Of a stretch of 64,000 nt of DNA, positions 38-63,895 are shown in pieces. Origin of the DNA: a virus. A program made the position numbers and the translations under genes. The stretch is from IMG/VR virus record IMGVR_UViG_3300025099_003636, positions 35,620 through 99,619 of that record, one strand, 5' to 3'. A model generated the notes under the pieces. It searched no databases and was not told where the DNA came from. It was given only the letters and a program-made list of their open reading frames with translations. Every line of letters starts with the position of its first letter. The stretch's first letter is position 1.

Positions 38-1351
38 CTATAGGTTATATAAAAAGTCTTTTTCTTCTTGTGACAATGAGTCCATACCACTTTTATTTAT
101 TTTATCTAGAATTGTGTCCATGTCAAATGACGTTTCATCTGTAGGTGGTAAATCTGGAGATGGTTCTACAATTTCACCTGTCGCATCTTCATAATCCTCA
201 TCTTTTAATTGTTTTTTTATATCCCCAACTATTTTTGCTACCATATCTTTACCTCTTTGTGAGCCAGATAAAATTTCTTTTGCCAAACCAATAAATGGTT
301 CTGGTTCCAAAGAAACTATATTATAATATAGGTAGTTTTTTATCCTACCATAATCTTCACTAGTTAATAACTCTTCTGGATAAGACTCTAAAAATTTTTC
401 CCAAATAACCGGACCTAATCTTAAATCCCATACTTCTGCTGGTAAAGTATCTTCAGAACCAATAACCTCTTCTGCAAACTCTGGGTCAGAAGGAAGTCCA
501 TGCATTGATACGTATTCCATAACACCTTTCCATAGTTCATGCACTAGGATTGGAAACATAATTCCTTTGGCTCTAATTGTTGGTGGGTCGGTTTGTAAGT
601 CAACCTCCTCTCTTCCTCCAGCCATTGAATCTGCCCCACTTCCAACAAGACCTTCCATATCCGGCATAATCCAATACATTAAATCGTTTACGGACATAAT
701 TAAAGAATATAGATTAACTAAATCCGGGTCAATTTCATTTAAAGTTTCATTAACTAAATGATACATATAGTGAGCTTTTTTAGCGGACCCCTGTATTAAA
801 GAATTAATTAACCTTCTTTTTTGTTTTTCTAAATCTAACTTTGCTAACCTCTCAGCTGCTTCCTTATCCTCGACATCTGGTTGGTCGAATTTTAATTCTT
901 TCTTTTTCTTTTCTTGTGGTTTTTTTTGCATCCCTTCTAGAGTTGGTTTTTCTAGTTTTGCATCAAATTGTAAATCACCCTCTGGTATTGCCATTTGGTC
1001 AACTACTAATGAAACCGCTAAATCCTCTAGTTTTTGTTTATTTTGTGCCTCTATTGCCATTGTTCTTTGTACTGCACTCATTAACATGGGTTGTAAAGAC
1101 ATGGCTGTTTGTGGATTTATCTCTTCCAAACCAGTAGCTTCTTTAACTTTATCTATAACATCTTTAAATCTTTTAGATGCTATTATTTCTTCAAAATTGT
1201 TTTGGTCATTTTCTTTTCCTGGGAAAGACTGGTGTGCACCTAATGGGTGTTTTCTAGACCTTAATTTACTTTCAATGTCAGGTGACATTCTTTCCGGTCT
1301 ACCACTATAATCAATCGGTGGTGCTTCATTTAATTTAGTTTTTTTAGACAT
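38..1351 (-). CDS. Putative virion protein with short N-terminal tag and C-terminal helical motif
   Basis: 437 residues, function not recognised. The N-terminus MSKKTKLNEA has an L-N-E|A site at residue 9, like the tag family in this window. Residues about 140-200 are rich in Lys and Glu and probably helical. A hydrophobic, aromatic stretch containing VHELWKGVMEY lies in the middle, but it is not a complete HExxH zinc motif. The last 25 residues (DTILDKINKSG, then SLSQEEKDFL) resemble the C-terminal helix motif of Bacteroidota rhomboid-like proteins (DUF6576 type). It is the last gene seen of a minus-strand block, 3 bp after the next tagged gene. A structural role is inferred from tag and context only. 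Confidence 0.75.
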   Translation of the reverse strand: MSKKTKLNEAPPIDYSGRPERMSPDIESKLRSRKHPLGAHQSFPGKENDQNNFEEIIASKRFKDVIDKVKEATGLEEINPQTAMSLQPMLMSAVQRTMAIEAQNKQKLEDLAVSLVVDQMAIPEGDLQFDAKLEKPTLEGMQKKPQEKKKKELKFDQPDVEDKEAAERLAKLDLEKQKRRLINSLIQGSAKKAHYMYHLVNETLNEIDPDLVNLYSLIMSVNDLMYWIMPDMEGLVGSGADSMAGGREEVDLQTDPPTIRAKGIMFPILVHELWKGVMEYVSMHGLPSDPEFAEEVIGSEDTLPAEVWDLRLGPVIWEKFLESYPEELLTSEDYGRIKNYLYYNIVSLEPEPFIGLAKEILSGSQRGKDMVAKIVGDIKKQLKDEDYEDATGEIVEPSPDLPPTDETSFDMDTILDKINKSGMDSLSQEEKDFLYNL

Positions 1352-1354
1352 ACC

Positions 1355-2416
1355 TTATTCTTCTGTTATGTTATCAAAAGTTAACCAATCAGGTAATTTG
1401 TTTTTTCTTGCCTTAGGTTTTGGTTTAGTGCTTGGATTAGGTACTTTGAAGGGTCCTCTTCTCTTTTTTTCACCTGGTTTTGTTGTTGGAGGTGCAATTG
1501 TTGGTGCTTCTAATGGTGAATTTTCATCCAAGTTTTCCTCACCAACGATATTCCCATCTAACTGCACTTCACCAGATTCTTTTATAATAAGTTCTATTAC
1601 TTTATTTGGTGATTTTAAATACCCTTTGATGTCTCCTTTGATGTTTTCTACAACAATCTTCATCGGTGGGTTCATTTCCTTGGTTAATTCGTTAACCATA
1701 TTAAAAGCCTTTTTCTGTTTGTCTAACTTATTTTTAGATGTTTTATTTTGTGTTTCTTTTACTGTTTTAATAAAATTAGCTTTTGTTATCTCCGCTGGTT
1801 GATTATTCTCAACTAGGGATATAATCCAATTTTCTAGAATTTCACCTTCAGTTAGTTTATTAGGTAAATCATCAACATTTTTTGTTGTTGTGTAATCCTC
1901 TATTTGTTTAAGTGTCATTTCTTTTGCGGCTTTTAGAACAGCGTTATCGTCTCTACCGTCACCACAATCTTTATAGTTACTTTTTTTACAAGCGTGAACT
2001 AATTTATAAAAATTGTATTGGGATTGGGATACCGCTTCTTCACTCATCTCCGTATCATCACCAGAATTTATTAAAGTTTTTTCTTCACCATCAGAATATT
2101 TAAATTTTGTTATAGGTTCGCCATCTTTTGTAACTTCTACCTCATCAGGTTTTTCTTCTTCATTAGTAGTTACGGTCACTGAACCATCGTCATTAGGTGT
2201 AACAGTACCATCAACAGTTAAACCACCAGATTCCTGTTTCATTTTATCTACTTCTGATTTGGTGTAGGTGGTCTTTTTTACTGTGGCTGTTTCAGCTTCC
2301 TTTAATATTTTTTTACTTAATACTTGTAATTGTTTGTCTGAAAATAAAGATAGGGTTCTATGTGTGAACCCTTCGTTGATTAATTTTGTAATTAATTTTT
2401 TTCTATTTTTTGGCAT
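1355..2416 (-). CDS. Tagged putative virion protein, Lys/Glu/Thr-rich
   Basis: 353 residues from the ATG that reads MPKNRKK; a TTG six codons upstream is also in frame. The first 45 residues hold two candidate cleavage sites, I-N-E|G near residue 15 and L-K-E|A near residue 42. Then come a charged, Thr-rich region, a helical middle and a Pro/Lys-rich C-terminal linker ending in a short acidic tail. It overlaps the upstream gene by 14 bp in another frame, which suggests translational coupling. No enzymatic motif is visible. Packaging in the capsid is inferred. Confidence 0.75.
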   Translation of the reverse strand: MPKNRKKLITKLINEGFTHRTLSLFSDKQLQVLSKKILKEAETATVKKTTYTKSEVDKMKQESGGLTVDGTVTPNDDGSVTVTTNEEEKPDEVEVTKDGEPITKFKYSDGEEKTLINSGDDTEMSEEAVSQSQYNFYKLVHACKKSNYKDCGDGRDDNAVLKAAKEMTLKQIEDYTTTKNVDDLPNKLTEGEILENWIISLVENNQPAEITKANFIKTVKETQNKTSKNKLDKQKKAFNMVNELTKEMNPPMKIVVENIKGDIKGYLKSPNKVIELIIKESGEVQLDGNIVGEENLDENSPLEAPTIAPPTTKPGEKKRRGPFKVPNPSTKPKPKARKNKLPDWLTFDNITEE

Positions 2417-10033: not shown

Positions 10034-10050
10034 TATGATATTTATTAACA

Positions 10051-11151
10051 ATGAAACTAATAATAACACAAAGACAATCTAATCTTCTTATTAAAGAAGC
10101 CATGGGGGTACCCAAACCTATAGAGTTTTGGGTTGACTCTATGTCTTCCTTGGTTAGAGATGGTTTATTAATGTTAGTTTCTTCTGACGACACATCTATT
10201 GATTTTACCGGGGATGAGGTTCAAGAAAAAGTTACTTCTTTAGGGTGGAACACTTCTAATGAAAGTTTTACTAAGTTTCCATTAGCTGAACCTAATTTAA
10301 AGTTAGACTTAGTTATTGTTCCTGATGAAGATGTTAAAATAGGTGATGACTATATAAATAACGCTTCTTTTGATACTGCTGATATGGATATCAAAGAAGC
10401 TACTTTTGATGATGGTGTTACAAGACCTTTATTAGTTGGTGGTACTATTACTCTAGAACTAACTATACCGCAATCTTCATATGATAATGTAAGTTTTGTT
10501 GAATTATTTGATTCAGAAATAAAACCTTATGTTGAGGCTGTTCTATTCCATGAATTAACTCATGTTTATGAATTTTATAACAGATTACTGAATTCTTCCC
10601 TAGACCCTAGTTTCGAGAATATGAGTAGTACAACATCTATGTTAAATAAAATGGGGTTAGTTGATGATTGGGATGAATTAATGTTTTTAGTTTACTTGCA
10701 TTTATCTTTTGAATTAAATGCTCGTGTTTCTGAGGTTTATGGTTTAATTAGAAATAAAAATATAAAGTCTAAAGAAGAGTTTATAGAATTTTTAAAGACT
10801 TCCAGAGCTTTTTCTTACGCTAAAAGATTAAGAAATTTCAAAGCTGATAACTATTATAGTGATTTTGAAGTCCCTCAAGAAACCATAGATAGAGTTAGAG
10901 AGTATGATGGAAAAGAAACACCAATAGATGAAATTAAAGAAATCGTTTTACAACAATTAATTGATAACTGGGTTGTATCTTATAAGAATTTATTAAATGA
11001 TTTTTCAGACGATGAAAATCTATCTATACCCACTTTACCACCAAAGGTAACTTCTTCACCTCAAAAATTTCTTAAGTTCTGGGAGAAAAGATTTAATTCA
11101 GCTGGTGAAGATTCTATCAGAAAAATATCCAAACTTTATTCCTTAATTTAA
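10051..11151 (+). CDS. Tagged zinc-metalloprotease-like protein
   Basis: 366 residues. The N-terminus ends in L-I-K-E|A at residue 16, a tag like those of the putative virion proteins here. The zincin motif HELTH lies at 167-171 (FHELTHVYEFY), preceded by a hydrophobic helix. A third zinc ligand is not certain; E219 or a nearby residue in the helix with FELNARVSEVY is a candidate. The C-terminal third is helical and charged. It lies 17 bp after clpC, probably in the same operon. If the tag targets it to the head, it could be a protease delivered with the DNA. Activity is inferred from the motif only. Confidence 0.7.
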   Translation: MKLIITQRQSNLLIKEAMGVPKPIEFWVDSMSSLVRDGLLMLVSSDDTSIDFTGDEVQEKVTSLGWNTSNESFTKFPLAEPNLKLDLVIVPDEDVKIGDDYINNASFDTADMDIKEATFDDGVTRPLLVGGTITLELTIPQSSYDNVSFVELFDSEIKPYVEAVLFHELTHVYEFYNRLLNSSLDPSFENMSSTTSMLNKMGLVDDWDELMFLVYLHLSFELNARVSEVYGLIRNKNIKSKEEFIEFLKTSRAFSYAKRLRNFKADNYYSDFEVPQETIDRVREYDGKETPIDEIKEIVLQQLIDNWVVSYKNLLNDFSDDENLSIPTLPPKVTSSPQKFLKFWEKRFNSAGEDSIRKISKLYSLI

Positions 11152-15512: not shown

Positions 15513-17798
15513 TTATTTGTTCTTTAAAATATTTATTAACCCTTCTGTTATATTTGGTAATGGATTTCTGCTAGTGTCACTTTCTTTATTCATTCCTTTT
15601 ATTTTATTTTTTACACCTTCTATACCACCGTCTTGGAATGCTTCATATAATTCATTTACTATGTTTGTGAAGTCGTCTTTTAACTCTTGTACTTTTGCTC
15701 CACTTCTTTTACCTATATCTGGATTATTTTCATCTGTGGTAAAATAAGGTTTTTCACATTTATTAGAAGGAATCCCATAACATTGTCCTTTATTAAACTC
15801 TTCTGATGATAGACCATCTAACCAGGTTTGAAAATCCTCAGCAGCCCAGTCATTATCTTCGGTTCCGTATGGTGAATATGTTTTGTACTTAGTAATTCTT
15901 TCTAGATTATCAGCACTAATTAACGCGTTAGGTTTATATCTAGAGTAAACCAATTCTTCATTTTCATTATATCTTTTTGGTGCGTATTGTGGCCAAAATT
16001 CTACTAACGCATCTGTAACATCAAGTAAATCATCATCAGCTGCTTCAGAACCAATTAACCATTCTTTATCAGCAACAACATCAAACACATCTTGTCTGGT
16101 GGTAAACACCCAATTAAGGAGTGTTGAAACACCTGGGAGAACTTTAGCGTTCATTAAACTTAAATTATCCATTAATTTTTCGTCACCAAGTCTATTATAA
16201 AAATAAGTTACTTGTGACATAGCAAGTACAGAAGGTACTTTTTTTATCACAGCTATAATAGAATTATCAGCTACACCTGTAAAAAGTTTTAATGCACCTA
16301 CATCAGGTACGTTATCATAAGACATATCATCTATGACGGTTTGTAAAAATTCCTCTCGTTTATTATTTGGGATTTCGTCTATACTTGTTGCTGCTTGACC
16401 GGACCCGTCTTTATTGTTGTACTTTCCAATGTAATCATTAAGGTTATTTAACTCATTTAAATCTCTAAATAACATCCACCCTTGTAGGTATCCATATAGT
16501 TTTTTTGCAAAAGCTTCTGCTTCCGTATCTGATAAACCACCTCTATCAAAAACAATTTGTTTATTTCCTTTAAATTTTTGATAAAATTTTTCAGTTAAAC
16601 CAGCTATAGATTTTTGACTAGCTGTTAGTTCTTGGAATTTTTGTACTATAAAATCTAATAGTAAACCTAAACTAACTGCACCAATTGTATAATACCACCC
16701 TTTTGCGGTTTTTGGTATTATTTTAAGTAGTGTACCACCTACAGTTACAGATTTTAATTTTTGTCTCAACGCAGTAACTAACTCATCCGTGGCATTTCTT
16801 TCTCCCCCTAACAAAAATTTAAGTTCCTTATCTGTTATTGTACCATTTTTAACTTGTCTACGTAATTGTCCTGTAGAATGCTTCTGGAGTAGTTCTATTA
16901 TCTCCTTTTGTTGGTCTGACCTTAATAATATACCAATAATGTCATCCATCACTTGAGGCGGAATCACTCTTTGTCTTGCAATTGACTGTGCTACTTGTGC
17001 TACCAAATCCTCCACACTCATCGGTAACCTGACTTGTGTTTGTTGGCTCGCTAATATTTTTAATTCATCTAATAATTTAGATAATGAAGGGTTATCTAAA
17101 TTATTCATCCAATCTCTTAGTGCTTTTTGTTTTACACCATTACTACCAGTAAAGGCTTTTTTAAATAAAAGGTCTTTTATTCCTTTTGTCCACTGCATTA
17201 CTAATGTATCGTCGGTTATGCCTTGTAATGCATTAGTAGGTGTGGTTGGTCCAGTATCAGTTTTTGTTTTTACGTCATCAGTTTTTACATTTACGTCATC
17301 AGTTTTTACTTTTGTCTTCTCTGATGTTTCTTTTGCAACCTTTTTTTCCAGAGCTTTAAGTTCAGCTCCAAGTGATACTCTGAAAGATGAACCATCTGCT
17401 AATCTTTCCGGTAGTTTAGCTATAAGTTCGTCTAGTTTAGCACCTTTTAACTTACCCGAAGTAACACTCTCCAGTATTCTTTTTAATATGCTCGCATTAA
17501 AACTGACACCACTATCAGCTACAATCTTTTGAGTTCCTTTAATTGTTTGTGTGTTAACATCTTTAGCTAATCTTCTAAATATGTTGTCTATTTTTTTACT
17601 GGATGTCCTACTCAATAATTGTGATATTCTATTAGATAGTTGTTCGGCCGCTTCTTTTGATAGGTTTTTACCAAAAATTTTGCTTAGATATTCGGTGAAC
17701 TCTCTTGATAATTGTTCATTTAGTGGTGTGTCTATTCTTGGTTTAAGCCCCATTATTTGACGAGCTCTATCTATTTCTGTTATAAGTGTATTAATCAT
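15513..17798 (-). CDS. Large tagged putative internal virion protein
   Basis: 761 residues. Residues 1-28 are a style-D tag (DRARQIMGL, then PLNE|Q, site after residue 28). Residues 30-170 are helical and Lys-rich, with a repeated VKTDD motif near 165-185 as a linker. A glycine-containing hydrophobic helix (WYYTIGAVSLGLLLDFIV, near 370) could enter a membrane. The rest is a long mixed domain with many aromatic residues. The end NITEGLINIL matches the end of the following protein. Candidate internal head or ejected protein; no enzyme motif seen. Confidence 0.75.
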   Translation of the reverse strand: MINTLITEIDRARQIMGLKPRIDTPLNEQLSREFTEYLSKIFGKNLSKEAAEQLSNRISQLLSRTSSKKIDNIFRRLAKDVNTQTIKGTQKIVADSGVSFNASILKRILESVTSGKLKGAKLDELIAKLPERLADGSSFRVSLGAELKALEKKVAKETSEKTKVKTDDVNVKTDDVKTKTDTGPTTPTNALQGITDDTLVMQWTKGIKDLLFKKAFTGSNGVKQKALRDWMNNLDNPSLSKLLDELKILASQQTQVRLPMSVEDLVAQVAQSIARQRVIPPQVMDDIIGILLRSDQQKEIIELLQKHSTGQLRRQVKNGTITDKELKFLLGGERNATDELVTALRQKLKSVTVGGTLLKIIPKTAKGWYYTIGAVSLGLLLDFIVQKFQELTASQKSIAGLTEKFYQKFKGNKQIVFDRGGLSDTEAEAFAKKLYGYLQGWMLFRDLNELNNLNDYIGKYNNKDGSGQAATSIDEIPNNKREEFLQTVIDDMSYDNVPDVGALKLFTGVADNSIIAVIKKVPSVLAMSQVTYFYNRLGDEKLMDNLSLMNAKVLPGVSTLLNWVFTTRQDVFDVVADKEWLIGSEAADDDLLDVTDALVEFWPQYAPKRYNENEELVYSRYKPNALISADNLERITKYKTYSPYGTEDNDWAAEDFQTWLDGLSSEEFNKGQCYGIPSNKCEKPYFTTDENNPDIGKRSGAKVQELKDDFTNIVNELYEAFQDGGIEGVKNKIKGMNKESDTSRNPLPNITEGLINILKNK

Positions 17799-17808: not shown

Positions 17809-18261
17809 TTACCACAAAGGGTTAGCTTTCCCTCTACTTGTTTGGTAGGAGTCTGCCCATTTACTATTTATTATTTGGTTTGCCATTCCTCTAGTTATTC
17901 CTGTTTCCCATACTCCAAGTGATGCTGTACCAGCTCCTGCACCATCATCTGATTCTCCAGACTCTGTTCCCGCATCTTGTTCCATAAATTCACCTGGTGC
18001 ATAACTATCTTCTGGTCCGTCACTATAAAAGTCATACGCTGAATTTTCTTTAGAGTAGTTGGTTTCTGGTTCAGTAAATCCTTCCCCCTCTAATTCTGGT
18101 TCAGAACCTAAAGCTCCTTTACTTGTAAAACTATACTCACTTGCACCATCTGTATCGGCATAACCACCTTGTAGACCGGACATAATATCTTCATTTAATG
18201 GGTTACCATCAAACATTATTTCCTTAACTCTATCTATATTTTCTTGTAACGAATCACACAT
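17809..18261 (-). CDS. Small acidic tagged protein
   Basis: 150 residues with a style-D tag (ENIDRVKEIM, then PLNE|D, site after residue 24). The body is low-complexity, rich in Gly, Ser, Glu, Tyr and Asp, and probably disordered. The last 30 residues (GITRGMANQII to the end) look folded. Composition recalls small internal capsid proteins. It lies just upstream of the 761-residue tagged gene. Confidence 0.7.
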   Translation of the reverse strand: MCDSLQENIDRVKEIMFDGNPLNEDIMSGLQGGYADTDGASEYSFTSKGALGSEPELEGEGFTEPETNYSKENSAYDFYSDGPEDSYAPGEFMEQDAGTESGESDDGAGAGTASLGVWETGITRGMANQIINSKWADSYQTSRGKANPLW

Positions 18262-18639: not shown

Positions 18640-19053
18640 TTACAGTCTACGTGATTTTAACCAAAATATTTCTCTACCTGCTCTAGTTTCTAAGGCTCTT
18701 AATTTTTGTTTAGATTTTTTTAAATCTAATTCTGGGGATTTTTCTAAATCACCCATCAAAAATGATGTAAACTCTAAAACATCAGCATTTAACTCTTCTA
18801 CGTATTGTACTCTATCTTGTAATTGTTCTATTTGGTCTTGTTGTAAAGCAACAATTTCTTCAGGTGATAAAAGTTTTTCTAACTCATCTTCAATGCCTTC
18901 AATATCATCTTCAGCATCATAAATGTCATTATCAGTATTAATCATATTAGCTTGGTCCAAAACTCTAAGAACCTCATCATCAGCAGTTTCTTGTTCAAGT
19001 ATATTTTTAAGTACTTTGGTTAACTGTTCTTCAGAAATTTTAATTTTTTTCAT
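18640..19053 (-). CDS. Tagged acidic helical protein
   Basis: 137 residues. The style-A tag occupies residues 1-20 (ISEEQLTKVLKNILE|Q). The rest is strongly acidic with heptad-like Leu spacing (ALQQDQIEQLQDRVQYVEEL), probably a coiled coil, and ends in a short basic segment. It resembles a prohead internal or core protein in form; function is not known. Confidence 0.7.
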   Translation of the reverse strand: MKKIKISEEQLTKVLKNILEQETADDEVLRVLDQANMINTDNDIYDAEDDIEGIEDELEKLLSPEEIVALQQDQIEQLQDRVQYVEELNADVLEFTSFLMGDLEKSPELDLKKSKQKLRALETRAGREIFWLKSRRL

Positions 19054-19088
19054 TTTTTGTTTTTATTATAAATATATCCTAATATTTA

Positions 19089-24475: not shown

Positions 24476-24967
24476 TTAATTCCAAAGTATTATTATATCT
24501 TTATCTGTTAGGTCTATTTGTACTGATGTAGGTAATATCGTGTGATACCTCATTTTGTCATCTTTTTCATCCATATAATACCATTTATCTGGGTCATCAC
24601 TCTTAAATCCACCCATATCATCCACTATTATTTCTATACGTTTCTCAGTTTCAACTTTTGTGTAGTCTTCATCGAAAATTTCAATAACCACTTCAAGTTT
24701 TACACTTGTTGTGTATATACTAATATCTTTGATACCCCAACTTCTAATATCCATATCATATCTCCAATTTACTTCACAGTCCATATATGATATATCAAAA
24801 TCTCTACCTTTATATTCAGGGAAATAATCACCCACACCAAATAAGTCTACATCATCTATTTTGGTCGTAAATGAGTTTGGGTCATCAGAAAAATTTCTTT
24901 GTTCTTTTACAATGCTTTCGACAACTTGTGTAAGTTGTGATTCCGATAATTTTATTTTTTTAATCAT
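24476..24967 (-). CDS. Tagged hypothetical protein
   Basis: 163 residues. The style-A tag is residues 1-22 (LSESQLTQVVESIVKE|Q). The body is an acidic beta-rich domain (VNWRYDMDIRSWGIKDISIY, VKLEVVIEIFDED, KRIEIIVDD). It lies immediately upstream of the OmpA-like tagged gene. No function recognised. Confidence 0.7.
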   Translation of the reverse strand: MIKKIKLSESQLTQVVESIVKEQRNFSDDPNSFTTKIDDVDLFGVGDYFPEYKGRDFDISYMDCEVNWRYDMDIRSWGIKDISIYTTSVKLEVVIEIFDEDYTKVETEKRIEIIVDDMGGFKSDDPDKWYYMDEKDDKMRYHTILPTSVQIDLTDKDIIILWN

Positions 24968-26625: not shown

Positions 26626-26864
26626 CGACCTACTTTAGAAAACATTCCTTGAAAAATTTCTTCGATAGCCCCTATTACGGCATATTGGTCTTCACCCCAG
26701 TTAGATTTATGTTTATCTATAATTTTATCTACAACAAATCTTAAATCTTTTTCTAGTAAATCCCATTTATCTGGGCCTTCATTTTGCCACCAGTTATCAT
26801 CTTCGTTAATTTTATTAACAATTTTTTTTAACTGTTCTTCTGATATGATTATTTTTTTTGCCAT
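26622..26864 (-). CDS. Small tagged protein
   Basis: 80 residues. The style-A tag covers residues 1-21 (ISEEQLKKIVNKINE|D). The remaining 59 residues are a small helical domain with Trp residues (WWQNEGPDKWDLLEKDL). Its start overlaps the upstream membrane gene by 16 bp. Confidence 0.65.
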   Translation of the reverse strand: MAKKIIISEEQLKKIVNKINEDDNWWQNEGPDKWDLLEKDLRFVVDKIIDKHKSNWGEDQYAVIGAIEEIFQGMFSKVGR

Positions 26865-43470: not shown

Positions 43471-44298
43471 TTAAATTGTTTGAGCTATTGGTGCGGTATC
43501 AAAAACCATGTACTCTCTTCCATTTTCTATCGTCGGTTTTTCTCCTTTATTTCTAAATATCATAACACCATCTCTACCGGATGTATTAAAAATATAATAG
43601 TTTACTGTTTTGGTTGGGTATGGATATAGTCCTCTAGACTGTATTTTCCATTTGTTATCATCTAACATTACAGCATCTACCAAAGGTTTAGCCTGATAAC
43701 CGTGTTCCTCACCACTATTTTTATTTATCATTATTATATCTACCCCTGTTAGTGCATCACTAAACATACCTGGTTCACCAGACCATTCAGCTCCCCAATC
43801 ATCACCATATAATGTTGTTAAATATTCTACAGCTTCACCTTCATTTTTAGAACCTCTATTCCAAGTGTTGTGATTTAAGTCAGCTAATTTTTTAACCATT
43901 GGTGTATCTTTTCCAAATAATATATATCTTTCGTTAGACACCCAATTTAAAAAATCTTTAATTTTAAACTCACATTCTAACCCCTCTTTACTTAACCATA
44001 ATCCGTATTCATCAATTAAGGCTTCTCTCACATTTCTATGAGCGTTAAAAAAATTTAATATTGACCACCCAAAGGTGCTTCCTTGAGCAACTTCGTAACC
44101 AACAACACCACCACTAGACATGTGTTTTTTTGTTGGTCTTTCCCACATATCAGAATACACATCACGTAATGCCTTATTAATAGTTTGTATCATACCTTTT
44201 CTCCAACCACTATTTTTCCCCCAGTATTTAAGATTTTTAGCCCAATTAAGTGAACATCGTGTTTGTTCTACCAATATTTTTTTAATTAGACTTTTCAT
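43471..44298 (-). CDS. Tagged protein with possible PD-(D/E)XK nuclease domain
   Basis: 275 residues. The style-B tag MKSLIKKILVE|Q ends at residue 11. In the C-terminal half a helix with E155 or E158 (NEGEAVEYL) is followed by TGVD187 on a strand, then Q202-A-K204 on the next strand (GYQAKPL). This E, D, QxK order fits a restriction-endonuclease fold. Without structure prediction the call is tentative. The N-terminal half is helical and aromatic. It lies between two membrane-domain proteins with zero spacing on both sides, which suggests a jointly produced set. Confidence 0.6.
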   Translation of the reverse strand: MKSLIKKILVEQTRCSLNWAKNLKYWGKNSGWRKGMIQTINKALRDVYSDMWERPTKKHMSSGGVVGYEVAQGSTFGWSILNFFNAHRNVREALIDEYGLWLSKEGLECEFKIKDFLNWVSNERYILFGKDTPMVKKLADLNHNTWNRGSKNEGEAVEYLTTLYGDDWGAEWSGEPGMFSDALTGVDIIMINKNSGEEHGYQAKPLVDAVMLDDNKWKIQSRGLYPYPTKTVNYYIFNTSGRDGVMIFRNKGEKPTIENGREYMVFDTAPIAQTI

Positions 44299-45150
44299 TT
44301 AGGTTAAATTCTTAGTTTTTTTGTATTTTAATTGAGCGTCAATAAAGGTGTTTATGTTTGGGTACTTTTTCTTGTCGGCTTTTTTATATTTGTTTTGGTA
44401 TTCTTTTTTTTCGTTACTGGTTAACTTTTTAATTTCATCTTTCACCTCACTTTTAACGATTGATTTTGATGTTTTATACGAACTTCCTTTTGCTATACCA
44501 CTAAAAAATTCTTTCATCTGTTTTACCATTACATTACCTGCTTTAGTAAATGCTAAAGGTAATCCAATAAACCCAAATGAAGCTTTATCTACTAGTTTGG
44601 CAAATGAAGGTATTAAACTATCAAGAAAAGAATTAATTTTACTAACATTTTTACTTATAATGCCGTACACTTTTTTAATAAGTCCTTGAACTTTACCACC
44701 CATATTATTTGCTAACTTAAATAAATTATTTGAGGCTACTTTACCACTTGTTGTCATTAGACTAAATATTTTAGATAATTGTTTTCCCACTAATTTATGT
44801 AGTGCTTTAAATGGTGTAGCTATAACTGAACCTACCACCGGTATTACAGCTACAAGGGATAAAGCTCCTAGTACCCATTTTTTTCTAATCATATAAATTA
44901 GAGCGTTAATCGCGTCAAGTGCGTCACCTATACCAGGTATAAATCCAGCGTAATCCAATACAGCTTGTACATCATCTATTACGCCCTCAGTAAGTAAAAG
45001 TTTGCCATTACCATCGTAAATTTCTAAAAGCTGGTTATTTCTATACCCCAACCCTCTACTATATGACATACCTTCAAAAAGTATTCCTTCTTGGTAATTT
45101 AATTCTTCTTGAATTATTTTTAATATTTTATTTTCGTCTGTATTATACAC
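44299..45150 (-). CDS. Tagged protein with an IPGIGD-type hydrophobic domain
   Basis: 283 residues. Candidate tag sites are I-I-Q-E (residue 15) and I-L-F-E|G (residue 26). Residues about 58-120 contain DYAGFIPGIGDALDAINALIY, then a basic turn and LGALSLVAVIPVVGSVIATP. This double hairpin matches the pre-toxin segments of polymorphic toxins (I-P-G-x-G-D, then A-L-S-x-x-A-x-I-P-x-x-G). The rest is basic and helical, with a second hydrophobic helix near 195 and a Lys-rich C-terminus. It overlaps the upstream tagged gene by 8 bp. Confidence 0.7.
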   Translation of the reverse strand: MYNTDENKILKIIQEELNYQEGILFEGMSYSRGLGYRNNQLLEIYDGNGKLLLTEGVIDDVQAVLDYAGFIPGIGDALDAINALIYMIRKKWVLGALSLVAVIPVVGSVIATPFKALHKLVGKQLSKIFSLMTTSGKVASNNLFKLANNMGGKVQGLIKKVYGIISKNVSKINSFLDSLIPSFAKLVDKASFGFIGLPLAFTKAGNVMVKQMKEFFSGIAKGSSYKTSKSIVKSEVKDEIKKLTSNEKKEYQNKYKKADKKKYPNINTFIDAQLKYKKTKNLT

Positions 45151-45361
45151 CCAGTTCTTTTTTAGCTTTGTCTGTTGGTGGTAACCCCAACTTCTTAGTT
45201 AGTTCAGCAATTTTAGTTTTTAATTCTTCGTTATCTGGGTCTTTTGTAAGTTGGTTTATTAGACCCATTAAGTCTTTGTTTTCCACTTCTTTTTCCTGTT
45301 CTTTAATAACCCTACCTACTATTCTTACTAAAGTTTCTTCTGTTAATTTGATTTTTTTCAT
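45143..45361 (-). CDS. Small tagged protein
   Basis: 72 residues. The style-A tag covers residues 1-21 (LTEETLVRIVGRVIKE|Q). The remaining 50 residues are a charged helical segment (LMGLINQLTKDPDNEELKTKI). Removal of the tag would leave an internal-type peptide of about 5-6 kDa. It starts just after the terminator at 45398-45424. Confidence 0.7.
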   Translation of the reverse strand: MKKIKLTEETLVRIVGRVIKEQEKEVENKDLMGLINQLTKDPDNEELKTKIAELTKKLGLPPTDKAKKELGV

Positions 45362-45424: not shown

Positions 45425-46009
45425 TTAAATTGTAGTGTTTGGAATTTTCTTAAGTGTTTCTTCACAATCTTTTTGACAACCATATAGTTTCATTCCTATA
45501 GGTACTACGTCGAATGTAGACATATTAGCTAAACTCATTAGAACCTTACCAATCATAGATGTAAATTCTGTTTCAGTGACCTTACCATCCTTAAATATTT
45601 TTTCCATTTCACCATAAATGTAATCAGCTTTTTTAGAGTATTTTCCTAATGCTTTTATAATACAAGTTTTACACTTATCATCAATTTCTGGCATTTGTTG
45701 TTCTATTATGGAATTTTCTCTATGTAACCTTCTCATTCTTTCTATATCCTCTTCTTCGGATAACCCAATCATCCCCATTAAATCTTCAACATCTAGATTT
45801 ATTTCTTCAGAACCATCTACAATATTGTCTTCACCTTTAACTTCAGCTTCAAGTGAAGCTGCTTCACATGGTGACATACTATCTTCTTTATGTGATAAAG
45901 GTTGTGAATAAGAACCACTTGCTGAAGCTGTTGTTGCTTCATACAATTTTCTTATTTCTTTTTTTTCTTCATCTAATAAGATGAATGAGTTTCTTCTTGA
46001 GTATTTCAT
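45425..46009 (-). CDS. Tagged acidic protein
   Basis: 194 residues from ATG (MKYSRRNSF); a TTG six codons upstream is in frame but overlaps the preceding gene. The tag-like segment is LLDEEKKEIRKLYE|A. The middle is acidic, with a second EEEDIERMRRLHRENSI that resembles the style-C tag motif inside the chain. Residues 110-194 are helical with CKTCIIKAL and CQKDC cysteine pairs. No function recognised. Confidence 0.65.
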   Translation of the reverse strand: MKYSRRNSFILLDEEKKEIRKLYEATTASASGSYSQPLSHKEDSMSPCEAASLEAEVKGEDNIVDGSEEINLDVEDLMGMIGLSEEEDIERMRRLHRENSIIEQQMPEIDDKCKTCIIKALGKYSKKADYIYGEMEKIFKDGKVTETEFTSMIGKVLMSLANMSTFDVVPIGMKLYGCQKDCEETLKKIPNTTI

Positions 46010-46013
46010 ATTT

Positions 46014-46844
46014 TTATTCAAAGTCAAAATGACATGGGTCTTTTGGTGCTTTTACATTAGGACCAGTTTCATCAGTTCCAGTTATTATTTGTTGTGCTGT
46101 TTTAAAAGCTTTTTTCTGTAATGCAACTCTTTCAAAGTTTTCTGAATAGTCTCTAAATATTCCCTCAGCACCTCTAATATTTTTATCATTAAAATATTTT
46201 TTACCTTCTTTTTGTACTAATTTAACAACACCTTTAAAGTCCTTTATAAAATCTTTAACTATACCTTTTATTGGTCCCCTTAAAAACTTAGTGTACATTT
46301 CAAGTTTTGCTATATAAGCAGCTAACGATGTTAAACCTTTAAGGCTATCATTTTCGGCTTTTTCCGGCATATATCTCTCATCACAATTTTTACTACTTCT
46401 AATAAAGTAAGCTACTGCTGATATTGCACCATAAACACTATATAACTTATTTAAAACTAATTCATTCATAATTTTTATATAGTCTTTATTACCTTCAGAA
46501 TCTTTTTCTATAGCGTTTACCTCTGCTGCGGTTGGTTCTAATTTATCATAGTAAGCTGGTGGGTTGGCAGTTGCAAGGTCAGTAAGTAGGGTTTGGATTG
46601 AGCCTCCTCTTATCTTTTTTTGTCTTTTCTTTTCACCTCTTTCATCGGTGTCTAGTGCGAACTCATCTTTTTCTTCACCACTATCATCAGTTTTTAATGC
46701 TTTCTTTAAAGCTTTTTTTCTTTTATAAGCTTTTGTACCTGGTAACCAAGATTGTTCACCCATTTCGGAAGCCTTATTTTCTTTCACGATTTGTTGAATC
46801 ATTTTTATAAGTTCTGATTCAGTTAATGTTACTTTTTTTGCCAT
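46014..46844 (-). CDS. Tagged basic helical protein
   Basis: 276 residues. The style-A tag is residues 1-22 (LTESELIKMIQQIVKE|N). A Lys-rich, probably disordered segment covers about 30-80, followed by a helical domain with long amphipathic helices (DYIKIMNELVLNKLYSVYG, KDFIKDFKGVVKLVQKEG). High positive charge suits a DNA-associated internal head protein. Confidence 0.7.
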   Translation of the reverse strand: MAKKVTLTESELIKMIQQIVKENKASEMGEQSWLPGTKAYKRKKALKKALKTDDSGEEKDEFALDTDERGEKKRQKKIRGGSIQTLLTDLATANPPAYYDKLEPTAAEVNAIEKDSEGNKDYIKIMNELVLNKLYSVYGAISAVAYFIRSSKNCDERYMPEKAENDSLKGLTSLAAYIAKLEMYTKFLRGPIKGIVKDFIKDFKGVVKLVQKEGKKYFNDKNIRGAEGIFRDYSENFERVALQKKAFKTAQQIITGTDETGPNVKAPKDPCHFDFE

Positions 46845-46888
46845 AGTTTTGTGTTTTTATATAAATATCTTTAATTAATAAAAAGTTG

Positions 46889-48349
46889 TTAGTCATCTAA
46901 ACTATCTAAGAAATCTTCCAGTGAATCTCCAATATCATTTTCATCATCCACCCAGTCATCACTTTTTTCCAATTTTTCTCTTTCTTCTTTTTTCTTTTTG
47001 TACGTTTCGGTTTGATATTTTTCGGGTATGGATTCGAATTCACTAAATGATGGATTTTCAAATACTAAACTTAATAAAAGATTATTGTCTTGTTCACTAC
47101 CATCCGAACCAAACCATTCTATCAATACTTTATTACTTAATATACTATTAACCCAGTTTTTGTAATCTTTAGTACGATATTTTTTTGGTACTATTGCTTT
47201 ACCCTCTTCATATGGGTTCCACCCATTTTTTATAGCTTGTACCATTAACTCCCCATCTTTTTTATTTCCAGAAGAATTAAATATAAATTTTATAAAGTCC
47301 CACTCTGTTTCTACATCCATAAAAGGTTCTGCGTCAGGGTCTGTTACTTTAAGAAAAAACTTATTTACTTTTTGGGTGGCTTTATCTCTAGGTTCTATCC
47401 CCCATAAATTCCTTATTAAGTCTTTTGGCCCTAGAACACCAGTTTCAGCTACCTTACCATATATTTCTTTGTATGTTAGTCCTGCTCCTATGAATACGGT
47501 TGTTATTGTAGCAAATTCTTTTAACCAAGCTTTTTGTTTTGCGGTAAATTTTTCTATACTTTCTTTTGTTATTTTTTCCGAGATTTCTTTTTGTACATGT
47601 TTTGTTACCGCCTTTTCAATAAATTCTGTACTTTCACCTAAAGCTTTTAACTGGTATCTTTCTAACATATTAAGTGGTTTGTTATTTGAAATCTTTAATG
47701 CTATTTTTTTAGCACCATTCTTACCCCACGATTTAACAAATGGGAATTTCTTCACAACTTTACCTACTCCCGGTAGTAATGTTAAGAATCCCACAAGACC
47801 AGCAGTTTCTTTATCACCTTCATTCCAATAAATCGCTGCGTCAATCATACCTAGACCAATTGATACTGCCCACCCAACATAAGGAATAAATAATGCTGCG
47901 ACTTCTGCAACAGGTAAAATACAATGCCAAGGATTATCACACATTCCCTTTTCACCTTGTTCCACCCATTCAATCCACTGGTCCATAGTCCAATCTCGTT
48001 TATTTAACATTGTACATGGTGGGGAACCTTCATTTTTATATTTATTATAAAAATCTGTATCAGCTTGTGTCCAATCTTCAAATTCCATTCTCACGATTCT
48101 TCTAGCTTGCCTTTTGGCTTTTTCTCTATACTCTTCACACTCGTTCCAGAATTGGTTGAAAGCTTTTTTAACGGCCTCCCTTTGTTTCTTATCAAAATTT
48201 GATTGGATTTGGTAGTTTGGGCTATCTGGATTATAATCTCCACTTAGAATTTTATCTTTTACATAACCTTGTTCTTGTACAGCAATAGTTTTTTCTGTTA
48301 CTAGGTCAATTAATGAAGAATTTAATGATATTTTGGATTTTTTGGTCAT
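46889..48349 (-). CDS. Tagged virion protein with hydrophobic pre-toxin-like domain (paralogue 2)
   Basis: 486 residues. The tag region (ISLNSSLIDLVTEKTIAVQE|Q) resembles that of the paralogue at 41842-43470. From residue 137, CDNPWHCILPVAEVAALFIP is followed by VGWAVSIGLGMIDAAIYWNEGD and AGLVGFLTLLPGVGKVV, in the same order as in paralogue 1. C-terminal matches include WDFIKFIFNSSG and WFGSDGSEQDNN. The regions before and after the shared parts differ, which suggests an old duplication. Ejection or membrane insertion is inferred. Confidence 0.75.
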   Translation of the reverse strand: MTKKSKISLNSSLIDLVTEKTIAVQEQGYVKDKILSGDYNPDSPNYQIQSNFDKKQREAVKKAFNQFWNECEEYREKAKRQARRIVRMEFEDWTQADTDFYNKYKNEGSPPCTMLNKRDWTMDQWIEWVEQGEKGMCDNPWHCILPVAEVAALFIPYVGWAVSIGLGMIDAAIYWNEGDKETAGLVGFLTLLPGVGKVVKKFPFVKSWGKNGAKKIALKISNNKPLNMLERYQLKALGESTEFIEKAVTKHVQKEISEKITKESIEKFTAKQKAWLKEFATITTVFIGAGLTYKEIYGKVAETGVLGPKDLIRNLWGIEPRDKATQKVNKFFLKVTDPDAEPFMDVETEWDFIKFIFNSSGNKKDGELMVQAIKNGWNPYEEGKAIVPKKYRTKDYKNWVNSILSNKVLIEWFGSDGSEQDNNLLLSLVFENPSFSEFESIPEKYQTETYKKKKEEREKLEKSDDWVDDENDIGDSLEDFLDSLDD

Positions 48350-48351: not shown

Positions 48352-48684
48352 TTATTTAAATCCACCCAATTTGTATAGTAAATTTTCTAAAGAAGAGTTA
48401 ACTAAGTCTGTTGCACCGTCTTGTGAATAAGAATATATCGCTGTTAAATCATCTACAACATCTTCTTTAGTGTATATTGCTCCTTCCTCCGAGTCTTTAC
48501 TGTATATTGCTCCATCATCTGAGTCTTTACTGTAGTTACCCCCGTATTGTTTTTTTAGATTTTTCCAGTCATCGTCATAAAAATACTCTGGATTACCACC
48601 TGGTGTATCCATACCAGCGTCCTCTTTTATAACTTTTTGGATTATTTTTGTCAATTCCGCTTCTGTTAAACTAATTTTTTTCAT
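48352..48684 (-). CDS. Small tagged protein with a short tandem repeat
   Basis: 110 residues. The style-A tag covers 1-21 (LTEAELTKIIQKVIKE|D). The middle repeats G-A-I-Y-[ST]-K, once as YSKDSDDGAIYSKDSEEG and once more, also visible in the DNA near 48460-48530. It lies 2 bp upstream of paralogue 2 and is probably co-expressed. Confidence 0.65.
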   Translation of the reverse strand: MKKISLTEAELTKIIQKVIKEDAGMDTPGGNPEYFYDDDWKNLKKQYGGNYSKDSDDGAIYSKDSEEGAIYTKEDVVDDLTAIYSYSQDGATDLVNSSLENLLYKLGGFK

Positions 48685-48722
48685 AATAATGTTATTTTAT
48701 AGATAAATACTTAAGTTATGGT

Positions 48723-51152: not shown

Positions 51153-51503
51153 TTATTTGTGTATGCCTAGTATGTGGTGAGATATATAATCTCTAACGGT
51201 ATTTAGGTTTTCAGCTGCTATCGTTATTTTAGATTCAACCCATTCAGGTAAATCCATGTCGTCTTGAATCATGTCTGAAACTTCTTTTGCGTCATTCATT
51301 AATTCCATAGAATCATGTTTTGCCATTCTACCTTCACCCTTATCTATTTTTAAACCTTTTTCATTTAGGTATTGTTCTACTTCTTCAACTTCACCTTTTT
51401 CAGTCATACTCATACCTACGTTATCTTCATTAATTTGTTGCATTCCATGTAAACCTCTAATCCTATTTTTTTCTTCTTCGTTTAATTTAAATCTATTTTT
51501 CAT
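51153..51503 (-). CDS. Tagged protein (style C)
   Basis: 116 residues. The tag is LNEEEKNRIRGLHGMQQINE|D (site after residue 26), nearly the same as the start of the protein at 63020-63895. The rest is an acidic helical domain (MELMNDAKEVSDMIQDDMDL, VESKITIAAENLNTVRDYI). It is followed by a terminator. Function unknown. Confidence 0.7.
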   Translation of the reverse strand: MKNRFKLNEEEKNRIRGLHGMQQINEDNVGMSMTEKGEVEEVEQYLNEKGLKIDKGEGRMAKHDSMELMNDAKEVSDMIQDDMDLPEWVESKITIAAENLNTVRDYISHHILGIHK

Positions 51504-51533
51504 AATTTATTTTTTTTATAAATATCTATCACA

Positions 51534-52172
51534 TTAGATAAATTGAGCTGGGGTAAGGTTAAGTTCTGTTAGTTTTGAATCGGCAATGTCCTCCACTTCT
51601 ATATCCCCATGGTAATCACTATCCTCAGTTTGTCTATCCACTTCATGTGACCAAGGGTCATTTTTCGCTCTATCTTCCGCATCTTCTTTATTAGACCCAT
51701 AGATATCACACATAATAGTAGAATATTCAGTAACGGTTTCTGTAACTGCAACATCAACTTCATACATCTTACCAGGAACTAATTCAATATCACCTTCTGA
51801 AAACTTTCTATCACTACCCCCATTATGTAGGTAATTCACTACAATAGTATAAAGTAAAAAATGATTAAAGTTTCTAGGTACCAAACCAACAATCTTAAGT
51901 CCTTGTTCTATTCTACCAGCTAATACTGCCATTTCTTTTTGATTATCTGGGGAATTATTAAAAGGGTAACTTGTTGGGTGACCATACCTTTCATAGTAAT
52001 TTAATAAATCTCTACAACCCTGTTTACCACCCACAGTTGTCATGTAAGTAAAAAGTACTCTAAGTTTTTGTTTAAACTTATCAGTCGTTGCATCTAAAGC
52101 ATCACGACCAGATTGTGTTCTACCCATGTCGTCAGTTTGTTCTCTTAATATTTTTTCAATTAAGTCTTTCAT
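51534..52172 (-). CDS. Tagged protein (style B)
   Basis: 212 residues. The tag MKDLIEKILRE|Q ends at residue 11. A helical region (FKQKLRVLFTYMTTVGGKQGC) precedes a beta-rich C-terminal half with PGKMYEVDVAVTETVTEYSTIMCDIYG and an acidic end. No motif recognised. It overlaps the upstream tagged gene by 17 bp. Confidence 0.7.
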   Translation of the reverse strand: MKDLIEKILREQTDDMGRTQSGRDALDATTDKFKQKLRVLFTYMTTVGGKQGCRDLLNYYERYGHPTSYPFNNSPDNQKEMAVLAGRIEQGLKIVGLVPRNFNHFLLYTIVVNYLHNGGSDRKFSEGDIELVPGKMYEVDVAVTETVTEYSTIMCDIYGSNKEDAEDRAKNDPWSHEVDRQTEDSDYHGDIEVEDIADSKLTELNLTPAQFI

Positions 52173-52473
52173 TAATATTATTGTTTTCGAAATCTTGTAA
52201 TTCTGGTAGTTCTACACCAAACTCTTTCCACTCATTATTGTTATTTAACTGAGTCTCTAACTCCTTATAAAGTTCCTCCTCTGTTTTCTTCTGACCATCT
52301 AATCCCTTAGACATCATTATTTCACCAGTTTCAACACTTATAACCTTTACGTCTAATCTACACGTACCATAAAAACAAAATCTACTTCCTTCTACTATAT
52401 ACTTCTTTCCTTGTTCATTAAGAACCCCCATTAACTCTTTCGCTCTAAGTATTTCTTCGTTTAAGATATCCAT
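52156..52473 (-). CDS. Small tagged protein (style D)
   Basis: 105 residues. The tag is LNEEILRAKELMGVLNE|Q (site after residue 20). The mature part contains two Cys (FCFYGTCRLDVKVISV) and a helix. A GC-rich structured stretch lies directly upstream on its strand. Confidence 0.7.
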   Translation of the reverse strand: MDILNEEILRAKELMGVLNEQGKKYIVEGSRFCFYGTCRLDVKVISVETGEIMMSKGLDGQKKTEEELYKELETQLNNNNEWKEFGVELPELQDFENNNINERLN

Positions 52474-52494
52474 ATGTTATAAATATAAGTGACA

Positions 52495-62064: not shown

Positions 62065-62079
62065 CGATATTTATATATT

Positions 62080-62343
62080 ATGAAGGCATTAATTAAAAAA
62101 ATATTAAATGAGTTTAAAATAGATGAATTATCTAGACACGACTACAAAGATGGTGAAATAGTTATGGAGTATGTTGAGGGTTATGACTACCCTAAATATG
62201 TTTTATACTATGATTCACCACAACAAATAACTATTGATGGCCCTAAAGAAGATGAATATGAAATTATAGCTGAGTTAGATAGTAGGTTCTTTGATGCTGG
62301 TATGGTAAACACCATTATAGATTATTTAAAATCCAGAGAATGA
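62080..62343 (+). CDS. Small tagged protein (style B)
   Basis: 87 residues. The tag MKALIKKILNE|F ends at residue 11. The rest is an acidic alpha/beta domain with many Tyr residues (GEIVMEYVEGYDYPKYVLYYD). Its stop overlaps the start of the zeta-like kinase (ATGA). Confidence 0.65.
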   Translation: MKALIKKILNEFKIDELSRHDYKDGEIVMEYVEGYDYPKYVLYYDSPQQITIDGPKEDEYEIIAELDSRFFDAGMVNTIIDYLKSRE

Positions 62344-62993
62344 AAGGATTAATTAAACAAGTATTAAGTGAAGAACTACTAAAAGAAGAAAAGGTGGTTA
62401 ATTTTAATTCTCCAACAAATAATTTTGTTGTTATAGCTGGAGGACCTGGTGCTGGTAAAAGTTTTATCACTAGAAACTTAATTAATTTAGATAATGTAAA
62501 AGAATTTAATGTAGACCAAGTTAGGGTTATGACAGCAAAAAAACTTTGGGGTGATGACTGGGAGGAAAATATCTCTACTGCTGATGGGTATCAAAAAATA
62601 CTTAATATGACTTACACCACATCTGACCCTAGAAATCTAACAGTTAAATTTCTTAAACAATTCTTAGAACAAGAACGTGACCAACCTGTTAATGTAGTTT
62701 ATGATGCGGGTGGAGGACAAGAACAAGTAATGAAAGATGTACATAAATTAGCAAAAAATAATGGATTTAACACCACCCTAGTTTATGTTAGAACTCCTTT
62801 GGAATTGGCTCAGATAAGAAATCAGGAAAGGCCTAGAAGTCTACCACCAGAAATGGTAGCACAATACCATCAAAAAGTTAAGGATAATATGAGAAATATG
62901 ATACCTGTTTTTGATAATGTATGGACAGTAGACAACAAAGAACTTATAGATTTATCAGATAGACCATCTGAAAATATAGAAAAGTTAAAATAA
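62340..62993 (+). CDS. Tagged zeta-toxin-like P-loop kinase
   Basis: 217 residues. The tag MKGLIKQVLSE|E ends at residue 11, with L-L-K-E|E a second possible site. Walker A is GGPGAGKS with K40. FNVDQVR supplies the catalytic-type Asp after the first strand. NVVYDAGGG and TTLVYVRTPLELAQIRNQER follow the zeta/Hypothetical-kinase order, with Arg residues for the lid. Zeta kinases phosphorylate UDP-N-acetylglucosamine, whereas phage relatives act on unknown targets. The N-terminal tag suggests delivery with the virion. Confidence 0.75.
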   Translation: MKGLIKQVLSEELLKEEKVVNFNSPTNNFVVIAGGPGAGKSFITRNLINLDNVKEFNVDQVRVMTAKKLWGDDWEENISTADGYQKILNMTYTTSDPRNLTVKFLKQFLEQERDQPVNVVYDAGGGQEQVMKDVHKLAKNNGFNTTLVYVRTPLELAQIRNQERPRSLPPEMVAQYHQKVKDNMRNMIPVFDNVWTVDNKELIDLSDRPSENIEKLK

Positions 62994-63019
62994 CTAAGTA
63001 TTTATATTAAAATAATATT

Positions 63020-63895
63020 ATGAAAAACGTACTAACTATATCAGAAGAAGAAAAAAACAGAATTAGAGGGTTACATTTAACAGAATCTAAAAATAACAGA
63101 ATTACCTCCGTATTGAGTGAAGAGGGTATACAGGATATGTTGGACGATGATAATTTAAAATTGTGCTTTATCGTACATTTTGAGAGTGGTGAAGTAGATA
63201 AGATTGAGCTTCCTAGGTCTGGAAATGTAGCTGATGATGCTAATTTTTATGGTAGAGTGATGCGATTGTTGATGCAGGGGATGAGAGGTGATAGACCATT
63301 TATTGATATAGAAGCTGGTACATCTGGTACTGGAAGTCATGACCGTAATAGGGAAGTTATGGAAGAAAGAGTGAATCAAGCGATTGAGTTTCTAATTGAT
63401 GAGGTGTCCAATTTTGTAGGACCTAATAAATTAAAGTACAGTGTTCCCGCAATAATAGATAAAGCTAATATAGATAGAAAGTATAGTAGAATTGAACCTG
63501 GTTCTATAATACCATTAACTGGAGAAGAAGTTCCTACTGACCCTAATGATGATTATTTTAAAGATGCACAATATGTACAAATTTGTATTAATCCAGTTAC
63601 AGAAACACCAAACTACAATAGTTTGGCAGATTTATTTATTAAAGCAACTAAAGATGACAGTTTGGGAACGGATGAAGACGGTGTTTATAGCATTTTACAG
63701 AAAATGAGAGATAAGGAAGACTTTGAAGCGTTTCAAGAGGAGTTAAGAGTGGGAATGTATGAAATGGATTTTTATGAAGTAGTTTGTGATGGTGGGGTAT
63801 GGCCATTTGGTAAGGTTAAAGAACTTCCTAGGGGAGACCATCACGGTATCGATTCAGAATTAAGGAGATTAGGGGTGAAACCTATTCCTTGTTAA
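63020..63895 (+). CDS. Tagged protein (style C)
   Basis: 291 residues. The tag ISEEEKNRIRGLHLTE|S matches that of the protein at 51153-51503. The body begins with an OmpA-like order: LKLCFIVHFESGEVDKIELP, then FIDIEAGTSGTGSHDRNREV and a helix VNQAIEFLIDEV. This resembles a shortened OmpA-type domain, but the match is uncertain. The C-terminal 130 residues are acidic and not recognised. Confidence 0.65.
   Translation: MKNVLTISEEEKNRIRGLHLTESKNNRITSVLSEEGIQDMLDDDNLKLCFIVHFESGEVDKIELPRSGNVADDANFYGRVMRLLMQGMRGDRPFIDIEAGTSGTGSHDRNREVMEERVNQAIEFLIDEVSNFVGPNKLKYSVPAIIDKANIDRKYSRIEPGSIIPLTGEEVPTDPNDDYFKDAQYVQICINPVTETPNYNSLADLFIKATKDDSLGTDEDGVYSILQKMRDKEDFEAFQEELRVGMYEMDFYEVVCDGGVWPFGKVKELPRGDHHGIDSELRRLGVKPIPC

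Follow-up and report, generated by a model that had tools for sequence, protein, structure and literature searches.

The locus examined here raises a simple question, namely why some two dozen proteins with unrelated bodies begin with one of a few short helices that end in the motif [LIV]-x-E. The window is a stretch of 64,000 nucleotides corresponding to bases 35,620-99,619 of the IMG/VR virus record IMGVR_UViG_3300025099_003636 (99,619 bases), and the remaining 35.6 kb of the record were also analysed. Genes are named by their start coordinate in the window (e.g., gene 18640), the record itself is designated G000 and its relatives G002, G005, G009, G010, etc.; a slash in a tag sequence marks the predicted scissile bond, cleavage being read from the sequence. 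By analogy with phage T4, these N-terminal tags would be capsid-targeting sequences (CTS) removed by the phage's own gp21-family protease, a reading to which we assign a probability of about 85%.

The existence of the tags is practically beyond dispute. When protein pairs without body homology were compared over their first, middle and last 30 residues (ungapped BLOSUM62, score >=40), this record yielded 17 pairs at the N-terminus, as compared with 1 in the middle and 1 at the C-terminus. The same imbalance was found in the 210-kb relative G002 (22 against 0 and 3), in Flavobacterium phage vB_FspM_immuto (18 against 2 and 3), in G005 (6 against 1 and 2) and in G010 (6 against 0 and 0); in some genomes, signal peptides contribute to the N-terminal excess. 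An origin of the tags from signal peptides or lipoprotein leaders was ruled out, such peptides clustering separately. Clustering of N-termini recovered styles A, B, C and D, as named in the sequence-only reading, independently of motifs chosen by eye, and a further style E (MKLIITxxQ...L.E), absent from that naming, was recognized.

The sequence-only reading had listed about 26 tagged proteins, and all N-termini, once re-read, agreed with its letters. Leave-one-out position-specific scoring matrices (PSSMs) were scored against 8,985 shuffled or internal decoys, with a resolution limit of corrected p 0.0011. Seventeen of the 26 proteins reached this limit (10051, 15513, 18640, 22617, 24476, 26622, 43471, 45143, 45425, 46014, 48352, 51153, 51534, 52156, 62080, 62340 and 63020). 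Seven others scored less well (46889, p 0.011; 1355, p 0.027; 17809, p 0.028; 25432, p 0.06; 44299, p 0.08; 41842, p 0.11; 38, p 0.24) and were supported otherwise, by an [LIV]-x-E kept in orthologues, by tag swaps or by a tagged paralogue pair. Two members were dropped: gene 2403 (p 1), whose Glu is lost in a relative, and gene 20618 (p 0.17), whose Glu is not conserved. The corrected tally is thus about 24 tagged genes within the window; one more lies outside it, at record position 25489. No untagged protein scored below p 0.026, a value obtained for a lipoprotein signal peptide, and the claim that household enzymes lack the tag held for DnaK, ClpC, thioredoxin and the glycosyltransferases, in which this scoring did not find it.

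A capsid-targeting role calls for a protease, and the absence of one from the genome had been named as an outcome that would speak against it. The record was found to encode, outside the window, an S77 prohead protease of the T4 gp21 family (233 aa; record 30112-30585; PF03420, E 4e-27) that also matches PHROG 207, the head maturation protease (5e-46). It belongs to a T4-type head module comprising a terminase, a portal (PHROG 213, E 7e-69), an acidic scaffold-like protein and a gp23-type capsid protein (PHROG 138, E 4e-66). Among named phages, the closest capsid proteins include those of Flavobacterium phage immuto and Microcystis phage Mel-JY01, with ca. 41-44% identity over half of the protein. 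Capsid proteins of about 29 distinct relatives display LINE followed by A or Q, ahead of a conserved VFPI[IV]RR core; this predicted processing junction is of the same type as that of T4 gp23. For the scaffold-like gene (L003:10404-11810, minus strand), a GTG lying upstream is the probable start, from which the product would read MSKTILEKALLEAEQLEETMKSNAKEIL, like its counterparts in relatives L055 and L056. In T4, gp21 cleaves after Glu at a comparably short motif, and the peptides of the internal proteins, 10-19 residues long, are targeting sequences (PMC9026906).

The predicted cleavage site is kept in most orthologues. Of the 13 families with orthologues, 12 have an invariant Glu at the predicted P1 position and 12 have L, I, V, M or F at P3; family 26622, the exception, keeps hydrophobic-x-E displaced by one residue. 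Elsewhere in these stretches, 32 of 52 Glu residues are invariant (p 0.03 against the P1 Glu). Furthermore, bodies appear from their sequences to exchange tags at the predicted scissile bond. Gene 38 reads MSKKTKLNE/APPIDYSGRPERM here and MKISKNNLDNIINRRILE/APIDYGDSPERM in the distant relative G010 (APIDY after the bond), so that the residues ahead of the Glu all differ, whereas those that follow it are homologous. The G010 homologue of the 44299 body bears a style C leader, genes 11369 and 59325 of G009 share a body segment preceded by style D in one and style A in the other, and the similarity of genes 51153 and 63020 to relatives is confined to the tag region.

The same cargo is found behind other leaders in other phages. 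Gene 62340 encodes a P-loop kinase (AAA_33, 3e-11; Zeta_toxin, 1e-8) whose body directly follows a style B tag, and its homologue in Aeromonas phage P19, used as a query, revealed relatives in 251 phage records, mostly T4-like. Their leaders differ, yet end in [LI]-x-E immediately ahead of the body: MKSFKQFTESTLTE/ALITF in KP27, MKSFKDFTSLDE/ALITF in phi1_146002 (annotated as a head morphogenesis protein), MNFKEFCQLDE/ALITF in S13, QIDE/ALITF in vB_VmeM-32, MLGNFDSFLSE/N in KVP40, MKTFAELQE/G in Melnitz and MKLFETINE/S in Tenacibaculum phage PTm1. The predicted mature kinase N-termini would be ALITFGGRAYPK and NRRQTQGGK (KP27, KVP40). In PTm1, the P-loop of the homologue (139854-141695) is interrupted by an apparent intein (GGAGCYPKGTEFFDG...). 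A HAD-like protein tagged in four relatives carries the leaders MIKKFNQFLE/N, FDQFIRE/S and NFELFLNE/N in three phages of 634-735 kb, and has no leader in a fourth huge phage. All eight of these phages with kinase or HAD homologues score for S77, the four largest weakly. The style A profile has no match in immuto, PTm1, P19, KP27 or the huge phages, where other leaders are used. That unrelated lineages would each place a T4-style leader of their own on the same protein is the strongest single argument for capsid targeting. The proposal of a targeting peptide cut after [LI]-x-E by a gp21-type protease is thus well supported in silico, by the protease, the capsid junction, the conserved P1 and P3 residues, the swaps and these T4-style leaders elsewhere.

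The tags also track the T4-like head module in public data. Profiles from this record, together with three G010 style E peptides, gave 22 matches in G002 (1.0 expected) and 8-10 in each of five other relatives (0.4-0.8 expected), a few of which (e.g., the MPRPKRK protein) appear to be false positives. In IMG/VR, all 15 matches to the style C core are N-terminal, 8-9 codons past the ATG. The style A core has at least 119 matches and, among the matches listed, 75 lie no more than 3 codons from an ATG and 65 have a complete tag; the reversed core peptide, used as a control, gave 18 matches, one of them N-terminal. Large tagged contigs display 6-16 style A tags apiece, although nine of the 16 in G041 largely represent one paralogous family and are hence not independent, and four control contigs have none. 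This family (MKKIKLTESDLYRIVRKVLLEQEEE...), with about nine copies dispersed in the 256-kb G041 (L269-L277), is perhaps mobile. S77 occurs in 24 of the 47 tagged contigs, as compared with 2 of the 18 control contigs, with a p of 0.003 that is optimistic because many contigs are near-identical or closely related. S77 is missing from 23 tagged contigs; gp23 is likewise absent from 21 of these, lies near the contig end in another and is damaged in the last. Missing head modules thus account for most S77 absences. Two further contigs whose S77 matches are more distant, of 387 and 120 kb, also bear the tag. Relatives of the protease occur in 59 IMG/VR contigs, the largest being G002 (210,568 bases); a search of GTDB bacterial genomes retrieved none. 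No match to the consensus tags was obtained by tblastn in cultured phages, the peptides being too short for such a search, and no paper describing these leaders was found in the open-licence literature.

An upstream element is shared by tagged and head genes. Among the 7-mers found at -35 to -8 of operon-first genes, TATTTAT ranks first in G000, G002 and G005. In this record, it precedes 10 of 10 operon-first tagged genes and 14 of 46 untagged ones (p 6e-5), and in G002 8 of 8 and 35 of 82, respectively (p 0.002). It is also found ahead of the terminase, portal, protease and tail sheath genes, as well as household genes such as those of ClpC and thioredoxin, and its distance to the start codons of head, tail and tagged genes is 12 or 18-27 nt (G000, G002). 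On the minus strand of the window it occurs at 19068..19074 (21 nt before gene 18640), 46861..46867 (23 nt before 46014), 48703..48709 (25 nt before 48352), 51518..51524 (21 nt before 51153) and 52479..52485 (12 nt before 52156, in operon with 51534); on the plus strand, at 10039..10045 (12 nt before 10051), 62068..62074 (12 nt before 62080, in operon with 62340) and 62999..63005 (21 nt before 63020). In reverse complement, TATTTAT corresponds to most of the T4 late promoter TATAAATA, and a sigma factor is encoded in G002. The element may be a late-type promoter, in which case the tagged proteins would be made during head building.

By comparison with known systems, the closest parallel is the CTS of T4 IPI, IPII, IPIII and Alt, cut by gp21, also a short N-terminal peptide ending in [LI]-x-E on unrelated proteins, with modular exchange on bodies and a co-encoded S77 protease and gp23 capsid protein. 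The differences are that P3 can here also be V, that there are several tag families, often 20-28 residues long, most of which look by eye unlike the T4 peptide MKTYQEFIAE, and that about 24 carriers, with mostly different bodies, are found although the genome is incomplete, T4 having about four. A resemblance to the T4 peptide is seen by eye in 25432 (FKDIL.E) and in the kinase and HAD homologues elsewhere (FxxF[LI]xE). In phiKZ, 201phi2-1 and SPN3US (gp175 or gp245), many head and ejection proteins are likewise cut after Glu by an S77-like protease; we know of no short leader common to many unrelated proteins in these systems. The phiKZ cleavage motif is S/A-x-E (PMC9026906), from which the tags and capsid protein described here differ in ending in [LIV]-x-E. 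Flavobacterium phage immuto, the closest cultured flavobacterial relative by capsid protein, likewise encodes the protease, and several leaders recur among its proteins (MKKSQLREIIRKEL, MENFDLKKFLVENKLT, MKKQILSEQFRRMQKLAGIITE), several of them beside head genes, but its leader sequences are its own, and the styles of the window score there only twice. The kind of system is known from T4. What is new, to our knowledge, is how many carriers there are, that the tags fall into several families, how widely these are spread and that tags are exchanged between bodies.

Based on these parallels, we infer docking, cutting, packaging and ejection as successive steps, targeting and cutting being taken from T4. 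During prohead assembly, the N-terminal helix would dock on the scaffold core and bring its protein inside; the S77 protease would then cut after the Glu of [LIV]-x-E and destroy the docking helix, leaving the mature cargo loose in the DNA-filled head. Many cargo proteins would probably then be ejected into the host. Interchangeable leaders, comprising styles A-E and the short FKDIL.E form, may serve about 24 proteins in this way. Ejection is consistent with the patchy presence of the carriers and with some of them being enzyme-like, and we hold it at even odds that most of them are injected.

Several observations weigh against this reading. No proteomic data were found for a phage bearing these styles, and styles A-D show, by eye, no kinship to the T4 peptide. 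The P1 conservation test reaches just p 0.03, several tags contain more than one possible cleavage site and a tagged phage lysozyme is an unexpected cargo. The relatedness of the contigs tempers the S77 association, the S77 difference is not significant among contigs of at least 100 kb, and neither S77 nor gp23 was found in the style A contigs G026 and G048 (100+ kb) or the large style C contigs G019 and G022. Among the alternatives, the one that deserves most attention, while remaining the less probable, is that tagged proteins are targeted and cleaved and are mostly components of the core or head, remaining in the head or aiding assembly, with no delivery to the host. Genes 38 and 1355, conserved in all close relatives and directly adjoining the terminase, could indeed be structural core parts instead of cargo, and the T4 scaffold and minor core proteins are substrates of the same protease, gp21 (PMC9026906). 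However, most carriers are accessory, many having no orthologues in five close relatives, and the kinase, lysozyme, DHH and HAD/5'-nucleotidase-like carriers are unlike conserved core parts.

The cutting step itself is deduced, and helix conservation extends past the residues next to the Glu, as would be expected if the helices stayed uncut and served permanently to dock their proteins on the virion or some other phage structure. This is improbable given an [LIV]-x-E conserved at the helix end in every style, different leaders that join bodies exactly after the Glu, and a protease accompanied by a capsid protein with an identical junction type. Even less credit can be given to leaders that act in translation or turnover (initiation-region mRNA, N-degron or regulator binding) with no relation to the head; their position at the start codon, the common upstream TATTTAT and the tmRNA of this phage point that way, but the styles differ in sequence and have in common only their protein-level ending, TATTTAT also precedes untagged head genes, and homologues elsewhere bear unrelated leaders with the same ending. 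Finally, a chance or low-complexity likeness of short N-termini picked by the reader might be suspected from short motifs in an AT-rich genome and from the failure of two of 26 members; it is refuted by decoy, internal, C-terminal and reversed-peptide controls, which do not reproduce the pattern, and retains almost no probability.

The style A tags lie on the minus strand and were supported by PSSM scoring and, except in gene 45143, by clustering. These are MKKIKISEEQLTKVLKNILE/Q (18994..19053; gene 18640-19053; I-x-E kept in five relatives), MIKKIKLSESQLTQVVESIVKE/Q (24902..24967; gene 24476-24967; orthologue conservation), MAKKIIISEEQLKKIVNKINE/D (26802..26864; gene 26622-26864; LKE/D shifted by one residue in a relative), MKKIKLTEETLVRIVGRVIKE/Q (45299..45361; gene 45143-45361; orthologue conservation), MAKKVTLTESELIKMIQQIVKE/N (46779..46844; gene 46014-46844; orthologue conservation) and MKKISLTEAELTKIIQKVIKE/D (48622..48684; gene 48352-48684). 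Divergent style A forms, also on the minus strand, are MAKKTKISLHLTLSETILEQAIIE/Q (43399..43470; gene 41842-43470, 542 aa), weak alone and resembling leaders of its paralogue 46889 and in G002, and MTKKSKISLNSSLIDLVTEKTIAVQE/Q of that paralogue (48272..48349; gene 46889-48349). Style B comprises MKSLIKKILVE/Q (44266..44298, minus; gene 43471-44298; clustering, PSSM, orthologue conservation), MKDLIEKILRE/Q (52140..52172, minus; gene 51534-52172; clustering, PSSM), MKALIKKILNE/F (62080..62112, plus; gene 62080-62343; clustering, PSSM) and MKGLIKQVLSE/E of the P-loop kinase or zeta-toxin-like NTPase (62340..62372, plus; gene 62340-62993; PSSM, T4-like phage homologues).

Style C tags, with a C-like form in gene 45425, were supported by clustering and PSSM: MKNRFKLNEEEKNRIRGLHGMQQINE/D (51426..51503, minus; gene 51153-51503; same tag on another body in relatives), MKNVLTISEEEKNRIRGLHLTE/S (63020..63085, plus; gene 63020-63895; relatives match in the tag only) and the C-like MKYSRRNSFILLDEEKKEIRKLYE/A (45938..46009, minus; gene 45425-46009). 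The style D tags, all on the minus strand, are MINTLITEIDRARQIMGLKPRIDTPLNE/Q (17715..17798; gene 15513-17798, 761 aa; clustering, PSSM, relatives), MCDSLQENIDRVKEIMFDGNPLNE/D (18190..18261; gene 17809-18261; style D leaders in four relatives), MEKQLLEELNRNREIMGLNHLIFE/Q (24393..24464; gene 22617-24464; clustering, PSSM) and MDILNEEILRAKELMGVLNE/Q (52414..52473; gene 52156-52473; clustering, PSSM). Style E is represented by MKLIITQRQSNLLIKE/A (10051..10098, plus; gene 10051-11151; PSSM, orthologues), with style E on other bodies in G010 and G002. Short forms are the T4-CTS-like MDTNFKDIILSE/G (25432..25467, plus; gene 25432-26625; FKDIL.E kept), MSKKTKLNE/APPIDY (1325..1351, minus; gene 38-1351; exchanged at the predicted bond) and MPKNRKKLITKLINE/G (2372..2416, minus; gene 1355-2416; second site ILKE/A at residues 36-39). 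A probable tag, MYNTDENKILKIIQEELNYQEGILFE/G (45073..45150, minus), begins gene 44299-45150, which has a GTG start and whose G010 body homologue carries style C. The segment PGIGDALDAINALIYMIRKKW of its body is reminiscent of pre-toxin regions of polymorphic toxins, although Pfam did not confirm this.

Pfam and PHROGs searches assigned almost no function to the tagged bodies. The enzyme-like carriers are the kinase, the HAD, DHH-like and lysozyme proteins and, in immuto, a 5'-nucleotidase. The phage lysozyme of G002 (L067:11443-12036, minus; Pfam 2.7e-19) bears the style E tag MRIVITENQVKLISE/Q, and a tagged peptidoglycan-binding protein was observed at L068:2305-3243. An AlphaFold model of gene 38 built from 13 orthologues was poor (pLDDT 48), and its sequence had no match in PDB. 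Elsewhere in the record, the left end (G000:1-18000) is occupied by a cluster of sugar-nucleotide, glycosyltransferase, NeuA/NeuB-like and epimerase genes, and the window contains a tmRNA gene (13861-14271, plus; predicted tmRNA tag AKLVTLGLVREESTVAVA) and a tRNA-Glu gene (61725-61797). Two very large proteins of 1,593 and 2,955 aa (27247-32028 and 32064-40931, both minus), with a GC content of 37-39% against ca. 31% elsewhere and poorly conserved N-terminal parts, are likely host-contact proteins.

Phage-injected proteins act before phage gene expression. They are candidate counter-defence factors, yet as a rule virion proteomics is the sole means of finding them. Should the tag prove to be a packaging signal, the injected or head-packaged proteins of uncultured phages could be listed from sequence alone, T4 with its handful of internal proteins would no longer be a special case, and a natural set of packaging peptides would be available for comparison with that of T4. 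The balance is equal, in our view, as to whether this reflects a general, sequence-readable mode of cargo loading in a large group of uncultured T4-like phages, in which any protein may be packaged via an interchangeable, self-removing leader and each phage would deliver dozens of proteins with its genome, most of them with no assigned function and among them kinase, phosphatase and lysozyme-like enzymes.

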